The notes below the pieces were generated by a model. That model made no database searches, was not told the DNA's origin, and worked only from the letters and a program-made list of their open reading frames with translations. Made by a program: the position numbers and the translations under genes. 38,521 bases of DNA from a virus, in the IMG/VR virus record IMGVR_UViG_3300047552_000707, positions 1-38,521 of that record; one strand, written 5' to 3'. Shown here piece after piece: positions 3,636-38,521 of this stretch (the first letter of the stretch is position 1; each line of letters opens with the position of its first letter).

Positions 3636-6473
3636 ATGGCAACGTATTACGTCTCCCCGTCCGGTAGCGACAGCAACAACGGCACATCTACCGCTACACC
3701 TTTCCTAACCATCGGGAAAGGCTACTCGATGTGCAATGCGGGCGATACGTGCTTGGTCCGTACCGGCACGTATAACGTGCGTGTCAGCATGTACAAGTCG
3801 GGTACGAGCGGCAACCCGATCACGCTAAAAGCCTATCCAGGCGAATTCCCGATTATTGACGGAACCGGCACAGCAACAGGCACCAGCCAGGCGCTTGTAA
3901 GCATGGGCGGCAACTATAACGTCATTGACGGGTTTGAGATCAGGAATTTCCAACCGGCAACCGCGTTAACGTGGGACGGCGACCTCTATCTAGTCCAGGC
4001 GTTTACATCAAACTACAACACAATCAAGAACTGCAACATACACGATTGCTGGGGTTGTGGTGTTCAGTTAATGGGTACAGGCCACGTGCTTGAGGATTCT
4101 CAGGTGCATGATGTCGCGCAATACTCAATCACATACGGGAACTCTCCCGGCGCTTCATGGCCGGGGGCTATTACGATTGGTGTTGCCTTCTCAAATACGT
4201 GGGGCGTAGCCACTAACTGTACGGTTAGGCGCGTTAAGTCATACCGGAACGGTGGGGAGGGTGTACTCCCCATGAATTCTAGTTATACGACCGTAGAAGA
4301 TTGCGAGATATACGACAACTGGTCGGTTAACCTGCATTGTACCGACTCAGATCATTGCGTAATACAACGGAATAAAATCTACGCGACTACTAACGGTGAT
4401 GCGCTATGGGGCGCAAATCTAGCCGCACGCGGTATCAACCTATCGAACGAATACACGACGCCGAACCATAATGTCAACGGCGGCACGTATAACACGATTG
4501 TCAACAACATTATTTATAACACTGGCGAGCCATTCTCTGTTTGGTCGTATTACGCTACGGAATGCTCCAATAACGTCGTCGCCTATAACACGTTTGTAGA
4601 CGGTCGAACAAACGGTAAGGGCGCGGGGCCTCAGATGTTGCGCTGGGGTTGGGCTGGCGGCGGCACGGTCACAAACAACGTATTTTCGAACAACGTCATT
4701 GATTCGACCGTTGCCGGTGTGTCGTCGCTTGCCGGGACTCCTGGGACCGGTTGGACGTTCACCCGCAATATCTGGCGTCTTAGCCCTTCTGGCTTGACGC
4801 TTGATGGCAACAGCATTGTCCAGAATCCGAACCTAACCCGAGCCGGTGCAACAGGCGCAGGGACGCTTGTAGATGAGTTCTTTCGACCGCTAGTCGGATC
4901 GTGGTGTATCGGTGCGGGTGCTGCGCTTGCGTCCGTCACAGTCGATAAACAGCAGGTTACTAGGCCAGGTAGTCCGACAGTCGGTGCGCTTGAGGGTGTA
5001 TCCGCTGGCGATTGGACAACCATACCGTCTCCGTTGACCGGAACCGATGTCGGTTCTCCGTCTCCGACCGGAAGTAAGCAATACTCCCCGTCGCTGAATC
5101 AGTACCGGATTATCAGCTATAACTCGCTGGACATATACAGCACGTCCGATCAGTTCGGTTACATCTATTTGTCTGCGTCTGACGAGTGGGAACTTGTCTA
5201 TAAAGTCGAATCCTACTCTGGTGGTGGCACATACGCTAAATTTGGATGTGTGCTGCGCACATCACTTACGGCGAACAGCGGAAGCCTAGGGTTTCTGATA
5301 AATCCGAACTACGGGACCACACAGGTTCCGTGGAGGGGTTCAGACGGCGCATCAACGCTGATATTACTCGAATACGCGACGCTTGATCGCTGGCACAAGG
5401 TAAGCAGGTCTATAGGCGGTGCTGTTGCTTTCTCTACGTCAACAGACGGTGTTACGTGGATATATCGCAGCACGTTATCAAACACGGTCGTTGGGACAAG
5501 CCCTCTTTACTTGGGGCTTGCGGTATGCGCGCAAAGCGCGTCGTTGACAGCCACCGGGATATTCTCAAACGTCTCGTTTTATAACGCAGCTGAAGCGGTT
5601 GGTACAATCACGGCAGATGCAGAGGTTCTTGGTGTAACCGAGAATGCCGAAATACAGCAGGCTGCGGGTGTAATATCAGTCGATGCTGAGCTACTTGGTT
5701 ACTCTGAGTCGCGCGACATTTCAGAGGCAACCGGCACCATACTCGCGGACTTCGATCTAGTCGGAGTCGCACTTAATGACGGGGATGAATTTATGGCAAC
5801 AGCACAAGACATTATCCGCTCTGCGCTACTGTTAAACGGTGCTGTTGCAGCGGATCAGACGCTTTCGCAAACGGACCTAGACGACGGGCTTGTTACGCTC
5901 AATAACATGATCGAATCATGGAGCCTGGACGGGACTGTTGTTTACTCGGTTACTCAATACACGACACCGACCACTGCAGGCGTTGACTCGGTTGTATTGA
6001 CAACCAGGCCGCTCAAGATACTCGCTGCGCGGATCACTGACACCGCTGGTATTGACCACGCCATAGCGGAAGTCGGGTGGGATGATTACTCGATCATTTC
6101 GAACAAAGCGGTTCAATCAGCGTTCCCGCTGGTGTTCTGGTGCGACTACGCTTTTCCTGCTCCAACGGTGAAGTTCTGGCCTGTACCGACGTATGCGTAC
6201 ACACTGACATTCATGGTTCACTTGCCGTTTTACGGCTTTGATGCTCTGGATTCAACGGTTGTGTTCCCGCCAGGCTTTGAACGTGCGCTCCGGTATAACC
6301 TCGCTGTAGAAATGGCGCAATACGGAGGAGCATTGCCGCCGAAAGTAGAGGACATTGCGCGCGAATCGCTGATGCTGTTGAAGGTTACGAACTCGCGTCA
6401 AACAACGCTTCAGAATGACTCGGTGTTCATCAATCGTGCGGGACGCACGAACATCTATAGCAACATCACATGA
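3636..6473 (+). CDS. Beta-helix tailspike fused to a P22 gp4-like head-completion domain
   Basis: A 945-residue protein with three parts. Residues 1-430: YYVSPSGSDSNNGT start followed by beta-helix turns with NNVF/NNII ladders, typical of polysaccharide-degrading spikes. Residues about 440-655: a concanavalin/laminin-G-like beta-sandwich ending in SNVSFYNA. Residues about 657-718: three roughly 21-residue linker repeats of the form GTITADAEVLG, GVISVDAELLG, GTILADFDLVG. From residue 720 (MATAQDIIRSALLLNG) to the end the sequence has the pattern of P22 gp4-type tail accessory factors (AQDII, TLNNMIESWS, FPPGFERALRYNLAVEMA), which bind the portal and close the head after packaging. In P22 gp4 is a separate small protein, so the fusion is unusual. 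ATG 5793 could give the gp4 part alone. AGGA lies upstream of the start at 3636. Confidence 0.85.
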   Translation: MATYYVSPSGSDSNNGTSTATPFLTIGKGYSMCNAGDTCLVRTGTYNVRVSMYKSGTSGNPITLKAYPGEFPIIDGTGTATGTSQALVSMGGNYNVIDGFEIRNFQPATALTWDGDLYLVQAFTSNYNTIKNCNIHDCWGCGVQLMGTGHVLEDSQVHDVAQYSITYGNSPGASWPGAITIGVAFSNTWGVATNCTVRRVKSYRNGGEGVLPMNSSYTTVEDCEIYDNWSVNLHCTDSDHCVIQRNKIYATTNGDALWGANLAARGINLSNEYTTPNHNVNGGTYNTIVNNIIYNTGEPFSVWSYYATECSNNVVAYNTFVDGRTNGKGAGPQMLRWGWAGGGTVTNNVFSNNVIDSTVAGVSSLAGTPGTGWTFTRNIWRLSPSGLTLDGNSIVQNPNLTRAGATGAGTLVDEFFRPLVGSWCIGAGAALASVTVDKQQVTRPGSPTVGALEGVSAGDWTTIPSPLTGTDVGSPSPTGSKQYSPSLNQYRIISYNSLDIYSTSDQFGYIYLSASDEWELVYKVESYSGGGTYAKFGCVLRTSLTANSGSLGFLINPNYGTTQVPWRGSDGASTLILLEYATLDRWHKVSRSIGGAVAFSTSTDGVTWIYRSTLSNTVVGTSPLYLGLAVCAQSASLTATGIFSNVSFYNAAEAVGTITADAEVLGVTENAEIQQAAGVISVDAELLGYSESRDISEATGTILADFDLVGVALNDGDEFMATAQDIIRSALLLNGAVAADQTLSQTDLDDGLVTLNNMIESWSLDGTVVYSVTQYTTPTTAGVDSVVLTTRPLKILAARITDTAGIDHAIAEVGWDDYSIISNKAVQSAFPLVFWCDYAFPAPTVKFWPVPTYAYTLTFMVHLPFYGFDALDSTVVFPPGFERALRYNLAVEMAQYGGALPPKVEDIARESLMLLKVTNSRQTTLQNDSVFINRAGRTNIYSNIT
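5781..5795 (+). promoter_or_regulatory. Possible internal ribosome binding site for a separate gp4-like protein
   Basis: GGGG at 5781-5784 lies 8 nt before the in-frame ATG at 5793, exactly where homology to gp4-type proteins begins (MATAQDIIRS). Translation from here would yield a 226-residue head-completion protein besides, or instead of, full read-through from the tailspike. The Shine-Dalgarno is moderate, so this is a candidate only. Confidence 0.5.
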
Positions 6474-27327: not shown

Positions 27328-27545
27328 AAGGCTGGATAACTAAAACAGCCGGTGCGCTCTTGATCCTGTACGGAATCATCGGAGCAATCGCAGGACTGCA
27401 TGATTTCGACTCGGCATTCCTGATGGTCGGAAACGGACTCGGCTATATCGGACTGCGCAGAGCAACGGACAAAGCCGTTGCGGAGATCACGGCAAATCAG
27501 GTTAACCCTGCATCGCTTGATGACATCGTGAGGCGCAATCAGTGA
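27324..27545 (+). CDS. Small membrane protein next to the endolysin (possible holin or antiholin)
   Basis: 73 residues from GTG 27324 (GTGA overlap). Two likely transmembrane helices: TAGALLILYGIIGAIAGL and SAFLMVGNGLGYIGL, followed by a charged cytoplasmic tail. Directly upstream of the endolysin, the usual place of a holin or antiholin; the LydA-like protein at 28882 is the other holin candidate. Confidence 0.65.
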   Translation: MKGWITKTAGALLILYGIIGAIAGLHDFDSAFLMVGNGLGYIGLRRATDKAVAEITANQVNPASLDDIVRRNQ

Positions 27546-27997
27546 GCCAGGTGTCAACGCGCGGGCTTGCGCTGATTCGATCATTCGAAGGTTGCAAGCT
27601 GAAAGCGTACAAGGACGCTGCAGGCATCTGGACGATAGGCTATGGAACTACGCGCATTGCAGGTAAGCCGGTTAAGCCGTCGCTCACGATCAGTCAAGCA
27701 GAGGCAGAAATTCTGCTACAGCATCAGGTAGCAGAGCATTGGAACGCAGCAGAAAAGCACATTCTGTATGCGAATGAACTATCACAGGAGCAAATCGACG
27801 CGCTAGCGTCGTTTGTCTATAACGTCGGTGTTACTGCGTTTAAGGAATCAACGCTGCTAAAACTGCTAAATCGTGGTCAAGATGAGCATGTATCGTATGA
27901 ATTCCTGCGATGGAATAAGGCGGGTGGTAAGGTGCTGCGCGGGCTGACCCGTCGCAGAGAAGCGGAGCGTCAATTATTCTTAAGTGGAACGCCATGA
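27542..27997 (+). CDS. Endolysin, T4-type lysozyme (GH24)
   Basis: 151 residues from GTG 27542 (GTGA overlap). The GH24 active site is present with T4-lysozyme spacing: Glu16 in RSFEGCKLKAY, Asp25 in YKDAAGIWT, Thr31 in TIGYGTT. The N terminus is not a strong signal peptide or SAR anchor, so export should depend on a holin. It cleaves the glycan backbone of peptidoglycan at lysis. Confidence 0.93.
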   Translation: MSQVSTRGLALIRSFEGCKLKAYKDAAGIWTIGYGTTRIAGKPVKPSLTISQAEAEILLQHQVAEHWNAAEKHILYANELSQEQIDALASFVYNVGVTAFKESTLLKLLNRGQDEHVSYEFLRWNKAGGKVLRGLTRRREAERQLFLSGTP

Positions 27998-28224
27998 AGT
28001 ATCTAGCAATCATTGTCCTGTTGTTCGGTGTCGTCGGTTATGTCAGCGCGATGGAAGTCAGCGAAGCGATGACCTATCAGGGATCGGACTTTTTTTTCGA
28101 GCGCATTGGCAAGCCACATCCGATTGATCCTCCCAAGTGCGAGCCCGTACCTATCCCAGCAGCCGTGTGGCTGTTCGCGTCCGCGCTAGCCGGTATTGGC
28201 GTCATCAGCAAGCGCAAGGCGTGA
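27994..28224 (+). CDS. Mini-protein with signal peptide and VPLPA-CTERM-like tail
   Basis: 76 residues. N-terminal signal peptide (MKYLAIIVLLFGVVGYVSA). The C terminus reads VPIPAAVWLFASALAGIGVI then SKRKA: the VP-x-PAA motif, a hydrophobic span and a basic end of VPLPA/PEP-CTERM proteins, which exosortases recognise in exopolysaccharide-producing Gram-negatives. Only about 35 residues lie between the two signals. A T8 run (28090-28097) encodes the FFF before them. It lies between endolysin and a lipoprotein in the lysis cassette. It may be a sorted surface protein, a competitor for exosortase, or a two-helix lysis protein that merely resembles CTERM tails. Confidence 0.75.
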   Translation: MKYLAIIVLLFGVVGYVSAMEVSEAMTYQGSDFFFERIGKPHPIDPPKCEPVPIPAAVWLFASALAGIGVISKRKA

Positions 28225-28427
28225 TTAGGCTCGCCGTCCTGTTGTTGCTGTCAGGTTGCGTACAAGTAGGCCCGAAGGCATTGCCAGCGCATACCGTCGT
28301 CGCGGACTGCGAAGCGTTGCCAGCTATACCGCAAGTCGTGCATATCAGCATTGAGCCGGGAAAGCCGGTGATAGCGGATGCGGGTGGTGAGGCGTTGCTA
28401 AGGGCGTATGCAGGCGCTAGGCGATGA
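28221..28427 (+). CDS. Small lipoprotein, o-spanin (Rz1)-like
   Basis: 68 residues from GTG 28221 (GTGA overlap). MIRLAVLLLLSGC is a lipoprotein signal with lipobox LLSGC. The mature part is Pro-rich (KALPAHTVVADCEALPAIPQ), as in Rz1-type outer-membrane spanins. An inner-membrane partner would be expected nearby; the proteins at 28424 or 28671 are candidates but neither is a classic Rz with a long coiled coil. Confidence 0.7.
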   Translation: MIRLAVLLLLSGCVQVGPKALPAHTVVADCEALPAIPQVVHISIEPGKPVIADAGGEALLRAYAGARR

Positions 28428-28519: not shown

Positions 28520-28674
28520 GTATGTTCCTGTTCGTTGTACTCTCGTCTATCCGGTTCGAATGCGAGCCGTCAGGCCGCATTCTGTTCGGTATGCAGCAAC
28601 CCGGCACGGCTGTTACGTCACATGTGGACGGTGCGATGGCTGGCCTTTCATGTTCCTGGCAGGTAATACGATGA
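28516..28674 (+). CDS. Small hypothetical lysis-region protein
   Basis: 52 residues from GTG 28516 (or ATG 28522). A short hydrophobic start (SMFLFVVLSSI) and two later Cys (FECEPSG, LSCSW) may indicate an exported disulphide-bonded peptide. Coupled to both neighbours by overlapping stop/start codons. Confidence 0.5.
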   Translation: MSMFLFVVLSSIRFECEPSGRILFGMQQPGTAVTSHVDGAMAGLSCSWQVIR

Positions 28675-28895
28675 GCGATCCCAGGTTTCCGGAAGCGTGC
28701 CAAATTCTACCGATGCGAAATCACTTTCTACTCATGTGGACCGCTGTTTTTACCGCCTGGCTGGCCACTGGCGCGGTGTTCATCCTCGGTACATACAAGT
28801 CTCAGGAAATAGACTCGCAGATCATTAGTCGCATGGCTGTGATAGAGGATGGAATAAACGCGTGCAAGCGATCAATAATCGATGATGTCAGGTGA
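28671..28895 (+). CDS. Single-span membrane protein, possible i-spanin-like
   Basis: 74 residues from ATG 28671 (ATGA overlap). One transmembrane helix (FLLMWTAVFTAWLATGAVFI) preceded by a short cytoplasmic segment and followed by a helical soluble tail (IDSQIISRMAVIEDGINACK). Topology fits an inner-membrane spanin but the tail is short. Lysis cassette context supports a lysis role. Confidence 0.6.
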   Translation: MSDPRFPEACQILPMRNHFLLMWTAVFTAWLATGAVFILGTYKSQEIDSQIISRMAVIEDGINACKRSIIDDVR

Positions 28896-29199
28896 CGGGG
28901 GGAAATTCCCGCCAGACTTACCGACGACAAGTTATTTATGGGCGTTATGGCTCTCGTCATTCGGTGCGCTCTCCGCGTATCTTGTGCGGCTAAAGTCTGC
29001 GCAGGTTCCGAAATTCTCTTTCATGGCGCTTGCATCGGAAACAGTTATCGCGTCGTTTCTCGGACTGATAACGATGTACATCGGTGTATGGCAACACTTG
29101 GACGGCGAGATTATCGCTGTATCAATCGCAATCAACTCGCACTTTTCTACCCGTGCGCTGTTCCTGTTACGTAAACGATGGTTAGGCGAAGATGAGTAA
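28882..29199 (+). CDS. Putative holin, LydA-like
   Basis: 105 residues (two adjacent ATGs at 28882 and 28885). Three hydrophobic spans at about 18-37 (YLWALWLSSFGALSAYLV), 47-70 and 76-96, ending in SHFSTRALFLLRKRW, the conserved His...Thr-Arg-Ala-Leu pattern of LydA-type holins. It would permeabilise the inner membrane to release the endolysin. Overlaps the terminase small subunit start. Confidence 0.72.
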   Translation: MMSGDGGKFPPDLPTTSYLWALWLSSFGALSAYLVRLKSAQVPKFSFMALASETVIASFLGLITMYIGVWQHLDGEIIAVSIAINSHFSTRALFLLRKRWLGEDE

Positions 29200-29557
29200 C
29201 GCGAACAAGAAGCCGCGCAAGCCATACGTTAGGCGCGAGGACGTTGATTTTTCGCGAGCGTATGAACTTGCTCGGCTAGGAATGACCAATCAGCAGATCG
29301 CGGATTGTCTCGGTGTATGCGAAGAACGACTATACAAGGAGAAGCGGGAAAACACAGAAATCGCGGAACTTATAAAAAGGGGGCGAGCAGAAGGCATCGC
29401 TCAGGCTGTCAAGATGCTGGATCAGCACATTGAGGACGGCGACAAGACGTGCCTTATCTTCAAACTGAAATGCAAGGCCGGATGGAACGAACAGCAGCAC
29501 ATCCTTGAGAAGATCGCGCGGGATATCGCTGAGCTTAAGGGTGAGCCTGTCGAATGA
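29192..29557 (+). CDS. terS: Terminase small subunit
   Basis: 121 residues, with a helix-turn-helix (LARLGMTNQQIADCLGVCEE) for DNA recognition, then a helical oligomerisation core (AEGIAQAVKMLDQHIEDGDK; FKLKCKAGWNE) common to small terminases. Immediately upstream of, and overlapping, the large subunit (ATGA). It would recognise the pac region and recruit the packaging motor. Confidence 0.88.
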   Translation: MSNANKKPRKPYVRREDVDFSRAYELARLGMTNQQIADCLGVCEERLYKEKRENTEIAELIKRGRAEGIAQAVKMLDQHIEDGDKTCLIFKLKCKAGWNEQQHILEKIARDIAELKGEPVE

Positions 29558-30999
29558 GCGTATCGCTCTCCTCGCTCTACGGCGAGGTTCAGAAGCTAAA
29601 GAAGGCCAAAAGCGTTCAGCAGGCTATGGAAGTGATGCAGGCTGATGGCAAGTACAGGCTGATTGATTCGCTGTTCGTCGGTGGCGCTGACTCAGGGTAT
29701 CTCAAGCATGTAGAGTTAATGGGGAAAGGTGCCGACTACAGGTCGCGGCTATTCATCGCTGCCAACCGAGTCGGTAAAACGGTGATGGGTGCATATGAAA
29801 CGGCTTTACACCTCACGGGCGATTATCCTGCATGGTGGGATGGGGTACGGTTCGAGGGGCCAACTCTTTGCTGGGCAAGCGGAGATACGTCGAAGACGAC
29901 GCGCGAGTTCGTCCAGCTTGCGTTATTGGGTCACGAAAAGGGTACTGGTACGATTCCGCTGCAGGCGTTACTACGTACAACGGCGAAGTCAGGTACTGCG
30001 GACGCGATTGATACTATCGAGGTAAAGCACGCATCAGGCGGTGTCTCGCGTTGCGTCCTGAAATCATACGATCAGGATATAGATGCGTTCATGGGCGGCG
30101 CGGTTAACTTTATTTGGCTTGATGAAGAACCTCCGCTAAAGATATACACCGAGTCGCTAATCAGAACGATGACGACAGGCGGGCGCGTGTTAATGACGTT
30201 TACGCCGGTGCGAGGGCTGAGTGAGACTGTGCAGCATTTCATGCCGTCCGGTTCAGTACCTGATCCTATGCCGCAGGAGTGCTATGTAACACAGGCAACG
30301 TGGGACGATGCGCCGCACCTAACGGACGAAATGAAGCGCGAGCTATACAGCGCACTACCGCCGCATCAGCGTGACGCCAGGTCGAAGGGTATCCCGGCGC
30401 TTGGTGCAGGTGCGATCTATCCCGTACCTGAATCGGAGATTACATGCGCTCCGTTTGCCATTCCAGACTATTGGCCGCGTGCTTACGGGCTAGATGTAGG
30501 CTGGAACAGGACAGCGGCCATTTGGGGCGCAAAAGACCCCGATACGGGCACGATTTACCTGTATGCCGAATACTACAGGGGTGAGGCCGAGCCAAGCGTT
30601 CACGCGTCAGGAATACGTGCTCCTGGTGATTGGATCATGGGCGTTATCGACCCCGCAGCGCGGGGGCGTGGTCAGATCGACGGGCGGCAACTCTTGCAGG
30701 ATTACCTAGACCTCGGACTAGACCTAGACGTTGCGCGTAACACGGTAGAGGCTGGCATCTATCAGGTGTGGGAACTACTCAGCAGCGGACGGCTTAAGGT
30801 GTTCTCAACGTGTCTTAACTGGATCAATGAATACCGCGTTTATCGCCGTGATGAGAAAGGGCGCGTTGTGAAAGAGCGCGATCACTTAATGGACGCGACT
30901 CGCTATCTCATTATGTCAGGCATGGAGCGCGCGAAGGCCAAGCCGGTATCCGGCAAGCGTGAACAATTACCCTATAGAGGTTCGCTCGGATGGATGTAG
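29554..30999 (+). CDS. terL: Terminase large subunit
   Basis: 481 residues with both enzymatic domains. ATPase: Walker A AANRVGKT (about 69-76), Walker B FIWLDEE (186-192), coupling motif MTFTPVRG (about 214-221). Nuclease: Asp314 in YGLDVGWN, Asp366 in GVIDPAARG, Asp447 in DHLMDATRY. It pumps DNA into the prohead and cuts headfuls. Strongly conserved and in the canonical place before the portal. Confidence 0.96.
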   Translation: MSVSLSSLYGEVQKLKKAKSVQQAMEVMQADGKYRLIDSLFVGGADSGYLKHVELMGKGADYRSRLFIAANRVGKTVMGAYETALHLTGDYPAWWDGVRFEGPTLCWASGDTSKTTREFVQLALLGHEKGTGTIPLQALLRTTAKSGTADAIDTIEVKHASGGVSRCVLKSYDQDIDAFMGGAVNFIWLDEEPPLKIYTESLIRTMTTGGRVLMTFTPVRGLSETVQHFMPSGSVPDPMPQECYVTQATWDDAPHLTDEMKRELYSALPPHQRDARSKGIPALGAGAIYPVPESEITCAPFAIPDYWPRAYGLDVGWNRTAAIWGAKDPDTGTIYLYAEYYRGEAEPSVHASGIRAPGDWIMGVIDPAARGRGQIDGRQLLQDYLDLGLDLDVARNTVEAGIYQVWELLSSGRLKVFSTCLNWINEYRVYRRDEKGRVVKERDHLMDATRYLIMSGMERAKAKPVSGKREQLPYRGSLGWM

Positions 31000-38326: not shown

Positions 38327-38521
38327 ATGGCATACACCTATTCTGCGGTTCTCGTGACGCCTGCCGACCAACTTGAAGACGCCAACAAAGTCGGCTTGGC
38401 GCTTGGCTACAGCGCCAACGAATTCACCGTCACGGCATCGTCTGACGGTATTAACGTCACCCATTACTACTGCCACAGTTGGTGCAACGAGGTTTTCGAC
38501 CAGATGGTAAAAGGACTCGGA
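38327..38521 (+). CDS. 5' part of the junction-spanning small protein
   Basis: The ATG at 38327 follows GGGAAG and begins MAYTYSAVLVTPADQLEDAN; 65 codons run to the end of the window and continue at base 136 through the terminal repeat to the stop at 294, for 117 residues in total. Lies two bases after the fibre protein stop, so it is co-translated with it. Confidence 0.85.
   Translation, partial: MAYTYSAVLVTPADQLEDANKVGLALGYSANEFTVTASSDGINVTHYYCHSWCNEVFDQMVKGLG
38396..38521. repeat. Terminal direct repeat, right copy
   Basis: Identical to 10-135. The base before it (C at 38395) differs from the corresponding base 9 (G), marking where the non-native start of the contig begins. Confidence 0.9.

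Follow-up and report, generated by a model that had tools for sequence, protein, structure and literature searches.

The locus and its genomic setting

The gene examined here encodes a mini-protein with a CTERM tail and lies in the lysis cassette of a virus whose record of 38,521 bases, taken whole, is called the window. The window encodes a P22-like portal and a large terminase, together with an integrase-like and a repressor-like open reading frame, both called by eye, and no tRNA genes were found in it. A 126-nt direct repeat stands once at each end (10-135 and 38396-38521), which fits a genome that is complete and either circular or terminally redundant, and the window appears to be complete. 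The first 41 bases contain an inverted repeat (GTGAATTCGTTGGCG...CGCCAACGAATTCAC), the first 9 bases of which differ from the other genome end and are perhaps an assembly fold-back. A large protein encoded at 3636-6473 has a right-handed beta-helix (PF13229, E=2.7e-16) with a sub-threshold chondroitinase-B match, and may serve as a tail spike directed at polysaccharide of the host. The features of the cassette and its surroundings are as follows.

27542-27997, + strand: endolysin, T4-type lysozyme (PF00959, E=1.4e-43; phrog_7, E=1e-58), with a 4-nt overlap with the CTERM gene
27994-28224, + strand: CTERM mini-protein gene, 76 aa (ATG-start open reading frame; relatives; TIGR03370, 22.3 bits)
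27994-28050, + strand: N-terminal signal peptide, residues 1-19, predicted cut between VSA and MEVS (hydropathy and AxA-like site, by inspection)
28051-28143, + strand: mature middle, residues 20-50 (alignment; dN/dS 0.17)
28147-28221, + strand: CTERM tail, residues 52-76, with VPIPAA motif, transmembrane helix and basic end (profile scores, alignment, hydropathy, model)
28221-28427, + strand: Rz1-like lipoprotein, lipobox LSGC (alignment; weak Rz1/spanin scores, E=0.11-0.12)
28671-28895, + strand: short protein; a single hydrophobic helix, and a single Cys close to the end (sequence inspection only)
28882-29199, + strand: holin, superfamily III (PF16083, E=1.9e-7; phrog_785, E=7.4e-12)
29554-30999, + strand: large terminase (phrog_2, E=3.3e-30), which served as a query for relatives

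The ATG of the mini-protein gene overlaps the endolysin stop codon (ATGA), and the GTG start of the lipoprotein overlaps the mini-protein stop codon (GTGA). An earlier, sequence-only reading had described the gene as coupled to the endolysin and the lipoprotein; both overlaps are present, but the coupling is not strict, as an insertion lies upstream of the gene in one relative (L007) and downstream of it in two others (L012 and L035), with the gene kept. Its position suggests late co-expression with the lysis genes. The product of 28671-28895 gave no convincing family match in profile searches of PHROGs, Pfam and NCBIfam, and is a possible inner-membrane spanin.

Architecture of the mini-protein

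The product of 27994-28224 consists of a signal, MKYLAIIVLLFGVVGYVSA, a middle, MEVSEAMTYQGSDFFFERIGKPHPIDPPKCE, a proline, and a tail, VPIPAAVWLFASALAGIGVISKRKA. The signal peptide, short middle and C-terminal tail proposed at first reading are confirmed, the middle being 31 residues long. As in VPLPA-CTERM substrates, an N-terminal signal peptide is recognised by hydropathy and an AxA site on inspection; the predicted Sec-type signal ends in GYVSA before MEVS, and the AxA-type site of the relatives is VSA, VKA or AGA. In the alignment, the signal sequence varies freely among orthologues with its AxA-type end retained. The tail unites a VPxPA motif, a transmembrane helix and a basic cluster at the extreme C-terminus, all of which mark members of the family.

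Cys49, in the last part of the middle and shortly before the VPIPAA motif, is invariant in the alignment. The adjacent lipoprotein has a Cys too, in its mature part, and a disulphide between the two, or a lipid link, is possible from the sequences. The AlphaFold model (mean pLDDT 59) contains two helices only, one of them at residues 4-26 with low confidence, and as a prediction it informs on topology only.

The tail as a sorting signal

In the scheme of Haft et al. 2006 (PMC1569441), cellular substrates of this type use the Sec route and remain tethered through a C-terminal helix, and EpsH is believed to cleave the motif where it meets the membrane. The mini-protein has every part of this plan, with a body of about 31 residues. 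On the VPLPA-CTERM model TIGR03370, the window copy scores 22.3 bits (E=1e-4), below the cut-off of 25.35, and three of the four orthologues scanned pass it (L012, 30.4; L007, 26.7; L005, 25.9; L032, 25.0 bits). The mini-protein would join the VPLPA-CTERM family solely via the scores of its orthologues. The window tail also aligns with that of the flocculation protein PepA (E=3.5e-5). A profile built from seven cellular tails, which came from genomes found with an orthologue tail as query and are the closest available rather than a random set, gives the window copy 34.7 bits. None of 20,000 shuffles of the window copy's own hydrophobic stretch reaches this value, the maximum being 18.9 bits.

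These scores bear on the simplest objection, that the tail is an ordinary transmembrane helix resembling a CTERM signal by chance. In favour of this objection, the window copy falls just below the TIGR03370 cut-off, but the shuffles, the orthologues that pass and the co-occurrence with XrtD described below speak against a resemblance of this kind, which is largely refuted and which we hold to be very improbable.

Conservation adds a second line of evidence. Over eight orthologues, 17 of the 21 residues in the tail core never change, although the codons of nearly all of them differ synonymously, whereas the signal varies freely; selection on the protein therefore maintains the tail. By region, dN/dS is 0.34 for the signal, 0.17 for the middle and 0.19 for the tail, and thus the middle is selected as well. 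Tail and middle are not told apart by this ratio, and the case for conservation is therefore built on the core codons that are invariant at the protein level. Taken by curated and home-made profiles, the reading of the tail as a CTERM-type sorting signal is supported. The VPLPA/PEP-CTERM-like tail proposed earlier is upheld in several respects: the CTERM models do score it, with orthologues reaching 30.4 bits, so that a tail foreign to these models is excluded; it is kept in all relatives found, none of which loses the VPxPAA motif; and it resembles the substrates of genomes with XrtD.

The same figures weigh on the idea of a decoy, in which the tail would bind the exosortase and be slowly released, so that the mini-protein blocks surface protein sorting late in infection. 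A tiny body with a full signal at a late-type locus would suit a decoy, as would the tail, which varies far less than the signal does and, in L007, also less than the middle. However, the purifying selection on the middle suggests that the released part matters, and a decoy of this kind seems to us quite unlikely.

Relatives of the cassette

IMG/VR was scanned with the mini-protein, the tail pattern, the terminase, the endolysin and the lipoprotein as queries, and relatives were found on about a dozen contigs from two metagenomes. The gene and its tail are kept in every one of these contigs that has this lysis cassette and covers the complete locus. On one contig (G001; L150, L151), the same cassette is joined to another structural module, which is siphovirus-like and includes a tape-measure-like protein of 2,254 aa; the cassette thus passes from one type of phage to another. 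The lipoprotein has more distant relatives (L259-L261) that occur without the CTERM gene, which is therefore an accessory and not an obligate partner of the lipoprotein.

Among isolate phages (50,697 records), no useful match was found for the window mini-protein, for the proteins of L017, L029, L121 and L030, or for a generic tail. The generic tail query did match cellular CTERM proteins on plasmids, and the search was therefore able to see such tails. As a route to the host through prophages, the terminase was aligned with 84,980 genomes; the relatives have at most 63% identity, and a convincing CTERM tail is present in 0 of 80 loci.

CTERM tails on other viral contigs

Two tail patterns matched 26 and 34 stretches in IMG/VR, the reading frames of which were then checked. 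This gave 44 distinct proteins with a CTERM tail near the stop codon, while two further matches were not tails. The bodies of the 44 proteins form at least 16 non-homologous groups, four of them mini-proteins of 72-113 aa; some IMG/VR contigs may include host flanks, which makes it uncertain how many of the groups are truly phage-borne. The phenomenon is wider than the window phage, with unrelated phages carrying CTERM tails on different proteins.

One mini-protein group (L015, L017, L019, L021) lies 3' of an exonuclease and a pyrophosphohydrolase-like gene on a podophage contig of 40.6 kb that also has head and tail genes. Its member at L019:3952-4236, like the same gene in the other three, encodes a CTERM protein of 94-102 aa at the end of the podophage DNA-metabolism operon; the L017 protein scores 27.8 bits on TIGR03370, and no evident signal peptide was seen in the proteins of these four contigs. 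Two adjacent CTERM proteins are encoded on each of L020 and L023, and a single one on the related L030 (3635-4354), near an RNA ligase gene, the full-length proteins of these three having about 237 and 245 aa. On soil contigs (L121, L123, L125, L127, L135 and relatives), tandem secreted proteins stand near integrase or tail-fibre genes, and several of them end in TPLPAAVWLFG-type tails. A 64-aa cellular CTERM open frame (G284), considered as a precedent, was rejected for having no clear start or signal.

Such a distribution helps to weigh a role in lysis, which the sequence-only reading had raised as a recruited lysis helix. The mini-protein would then be a two-helix or tail-anchored envelope protein, spanin-like or antiholin-like, working with the endolysin, holin and lipoprotein, and its helix, though taken from a host CTERM protein, would have ceased to be recognised by an exosortase. 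Its gene overlaps the endolysin stop and the start of the Rz1-like lipoprotein, and the invariant Cys49 with the Cys of the mature lipoprotein would agree with such a partnership. Yet the motif and tail letters are under purifying selection, with PxPAAxW conserved beyond the needs of a helix, and the lipoprotein stands without a CTERM gene in L259-L261 and apart from it in two relatives with an insertion, L012 and L035. A lysis helix alone is insufficient as an explanation, because endolysin, holin and Rz1-like lipoprotein are all present in the cassette and the lipoprotein occurs elsewhere without the CTERM gene. The CTERM mini-proteins of unrelated phages, moreover, lie away from recognised lysis genes. 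A lysis accessory is disfavoured on these grounds, and we regard it as unlikely.

Link to the exosortase XrtD

Among these phage records, 35 were scanned for an exosortase and none encodes one. When 398 genomes belonging to a single phylum were searched with an orthologue tail, six gave matches, at the C-termini of proteins of about 200-420 aa. The exosortase family PF09721 is present in all six, which count as about five independent genomes given that G446 and G448 look near-identical, versus 8 of 38 controls (Fisher p=4e-4). XrtD (TIGR04152), the exosortase specific to VPLPA tails, exceeds its cut-off in 6/6 versus 2/38, the 30 controls without PF09721 being scored as negative. Only the same six, among 26 genomes tested, have TIGR03370 tails above the cut-off. 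The tail type is thus linked to XrtD in cellular genomes, and the phage's own host may bear the enzyme as well.

Comparison with known systems

The closest likeness is to VPLPA-CTERM and PEP-CTERM proteins (TIGR03370, TIGR02595; XrtD TIGR04152; PMC1569441), with which the mini-protein shares a signal peptide, PxP motif, hydrophobic helix and basic extreme C-terminus, and no helix between. It differs in being phage-encoded within a lysis-gene operon, whereas the cellular proteins are mostly single-gene units, in its body of some 31 residues, and in having no exosortase in the same (phage) genome. That normal substrates are long, as first stated, holds for most, but a cellular model of 58 positions exists, the EPS-associated small membrane protein EppA (NF046088). 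EppA is likewise very small with a CTERM-like tail, and the tails align (E=0.025); the mini-protein nevertheless reaches 15 bits against a cut-off of 90 and falls outside that family. MYXO-CTERM proteins of the myxosortase system (PMC11980579) also have a tripartite tail and an invariant Cys near the motif, but there the motif is of GCGC type with its own protease, while the mini-protein has VPIPAA with the Cys shortly before it.

With Rz/Rz1 spanins, the common ground is the adjoining Rz1-like lipoprotein in a lysis cassette. A two-component Rz has an N-terminal anchor, a periplasmic coiled coil and an Rz1 partner, whereas the helix of the mini-protein is C-terminal, its 31-residue middle is too short for a coiled coil, and the lipoprotein also occurs without it. 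No Rz match was found for the mini-protein in PHROGs, Pfam or NCBIfam. In the open-licence literature on PEP-CTERM or exosortase and phage, no description of phage-encoded CTERM proteins was found by title or abstract, and phages are not mentioned by Haft et al. 2006 (PMC1569441). The sorting signal is already known; its use by a phage appears to be new.

Proposed role

The earlier reading, by which the phage may use, saturate or block the host exosortase, is supported in part. We consider it fairly probable that the mini-protein is a phage-encoded substrate, or competitor, of a host exosortase, produced late in company with the lysis genes. The tail, its purifying selection, its likeness to substrates of XrtD genomes, its retention in lysis cassettes and its recurrence in unrelated phages carry this reading. 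Against it stand the score of the window copy under the curated cut-off, the 35 phage records devoid of an exosortase, the 50,697 isolate phage records with no match, the reduction of the six tail-bearing genomes to about five independent ones, and a lysis-cassette position that fits a lysis role too. The function of CTERM proteins is largely inferred in cells as well, and exosortases are still poorly understood experimentally.

As a substrate, the mini-protein would be made together with the lysis genes, exported by Sec, and presumably cut by signal peptidase between A19 and M20. The C-terminal helix would hold it in the inner membrane, so placed that VPIPAA lies on the periplasmic side and SKRKA on the cytoplasmic one. 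The host exosortase, probably XrtD-like, would recognise the tail and remove the helix, and the peptide of about 31 residues would be passed to a surface anchor, or the exosortase would be occupied by the mini-protein. Late in infection, a resulting change in the surface or EPS layer may help progeny to leave or to avoid re-adsorbing to debris. Processing by the host enzyme is the likeliest outcome, and through it the peptide may reach the surface or the enzyme may be tied up.

Extended to the other phages, the proposal would be that unrelated groups separately acquired exosortase signals and use the host exosortase for surface placement of phage peptides or for late jamming, a broader claim for which we see slightly less than an even chance.

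Implications

If phages feed proteins into the exosortase pathway, the EPS and surface-protein layer would be a contested target. Assays of exosortases would then gain, in the mini-protein, a natural substrate of very small size, and its tail would hint at the host type, namely bearers of XrtD, for uncultured phages. With the 16 protein groups, the idea can be put to the test through co-occurrence as well as in laboratory hosts.
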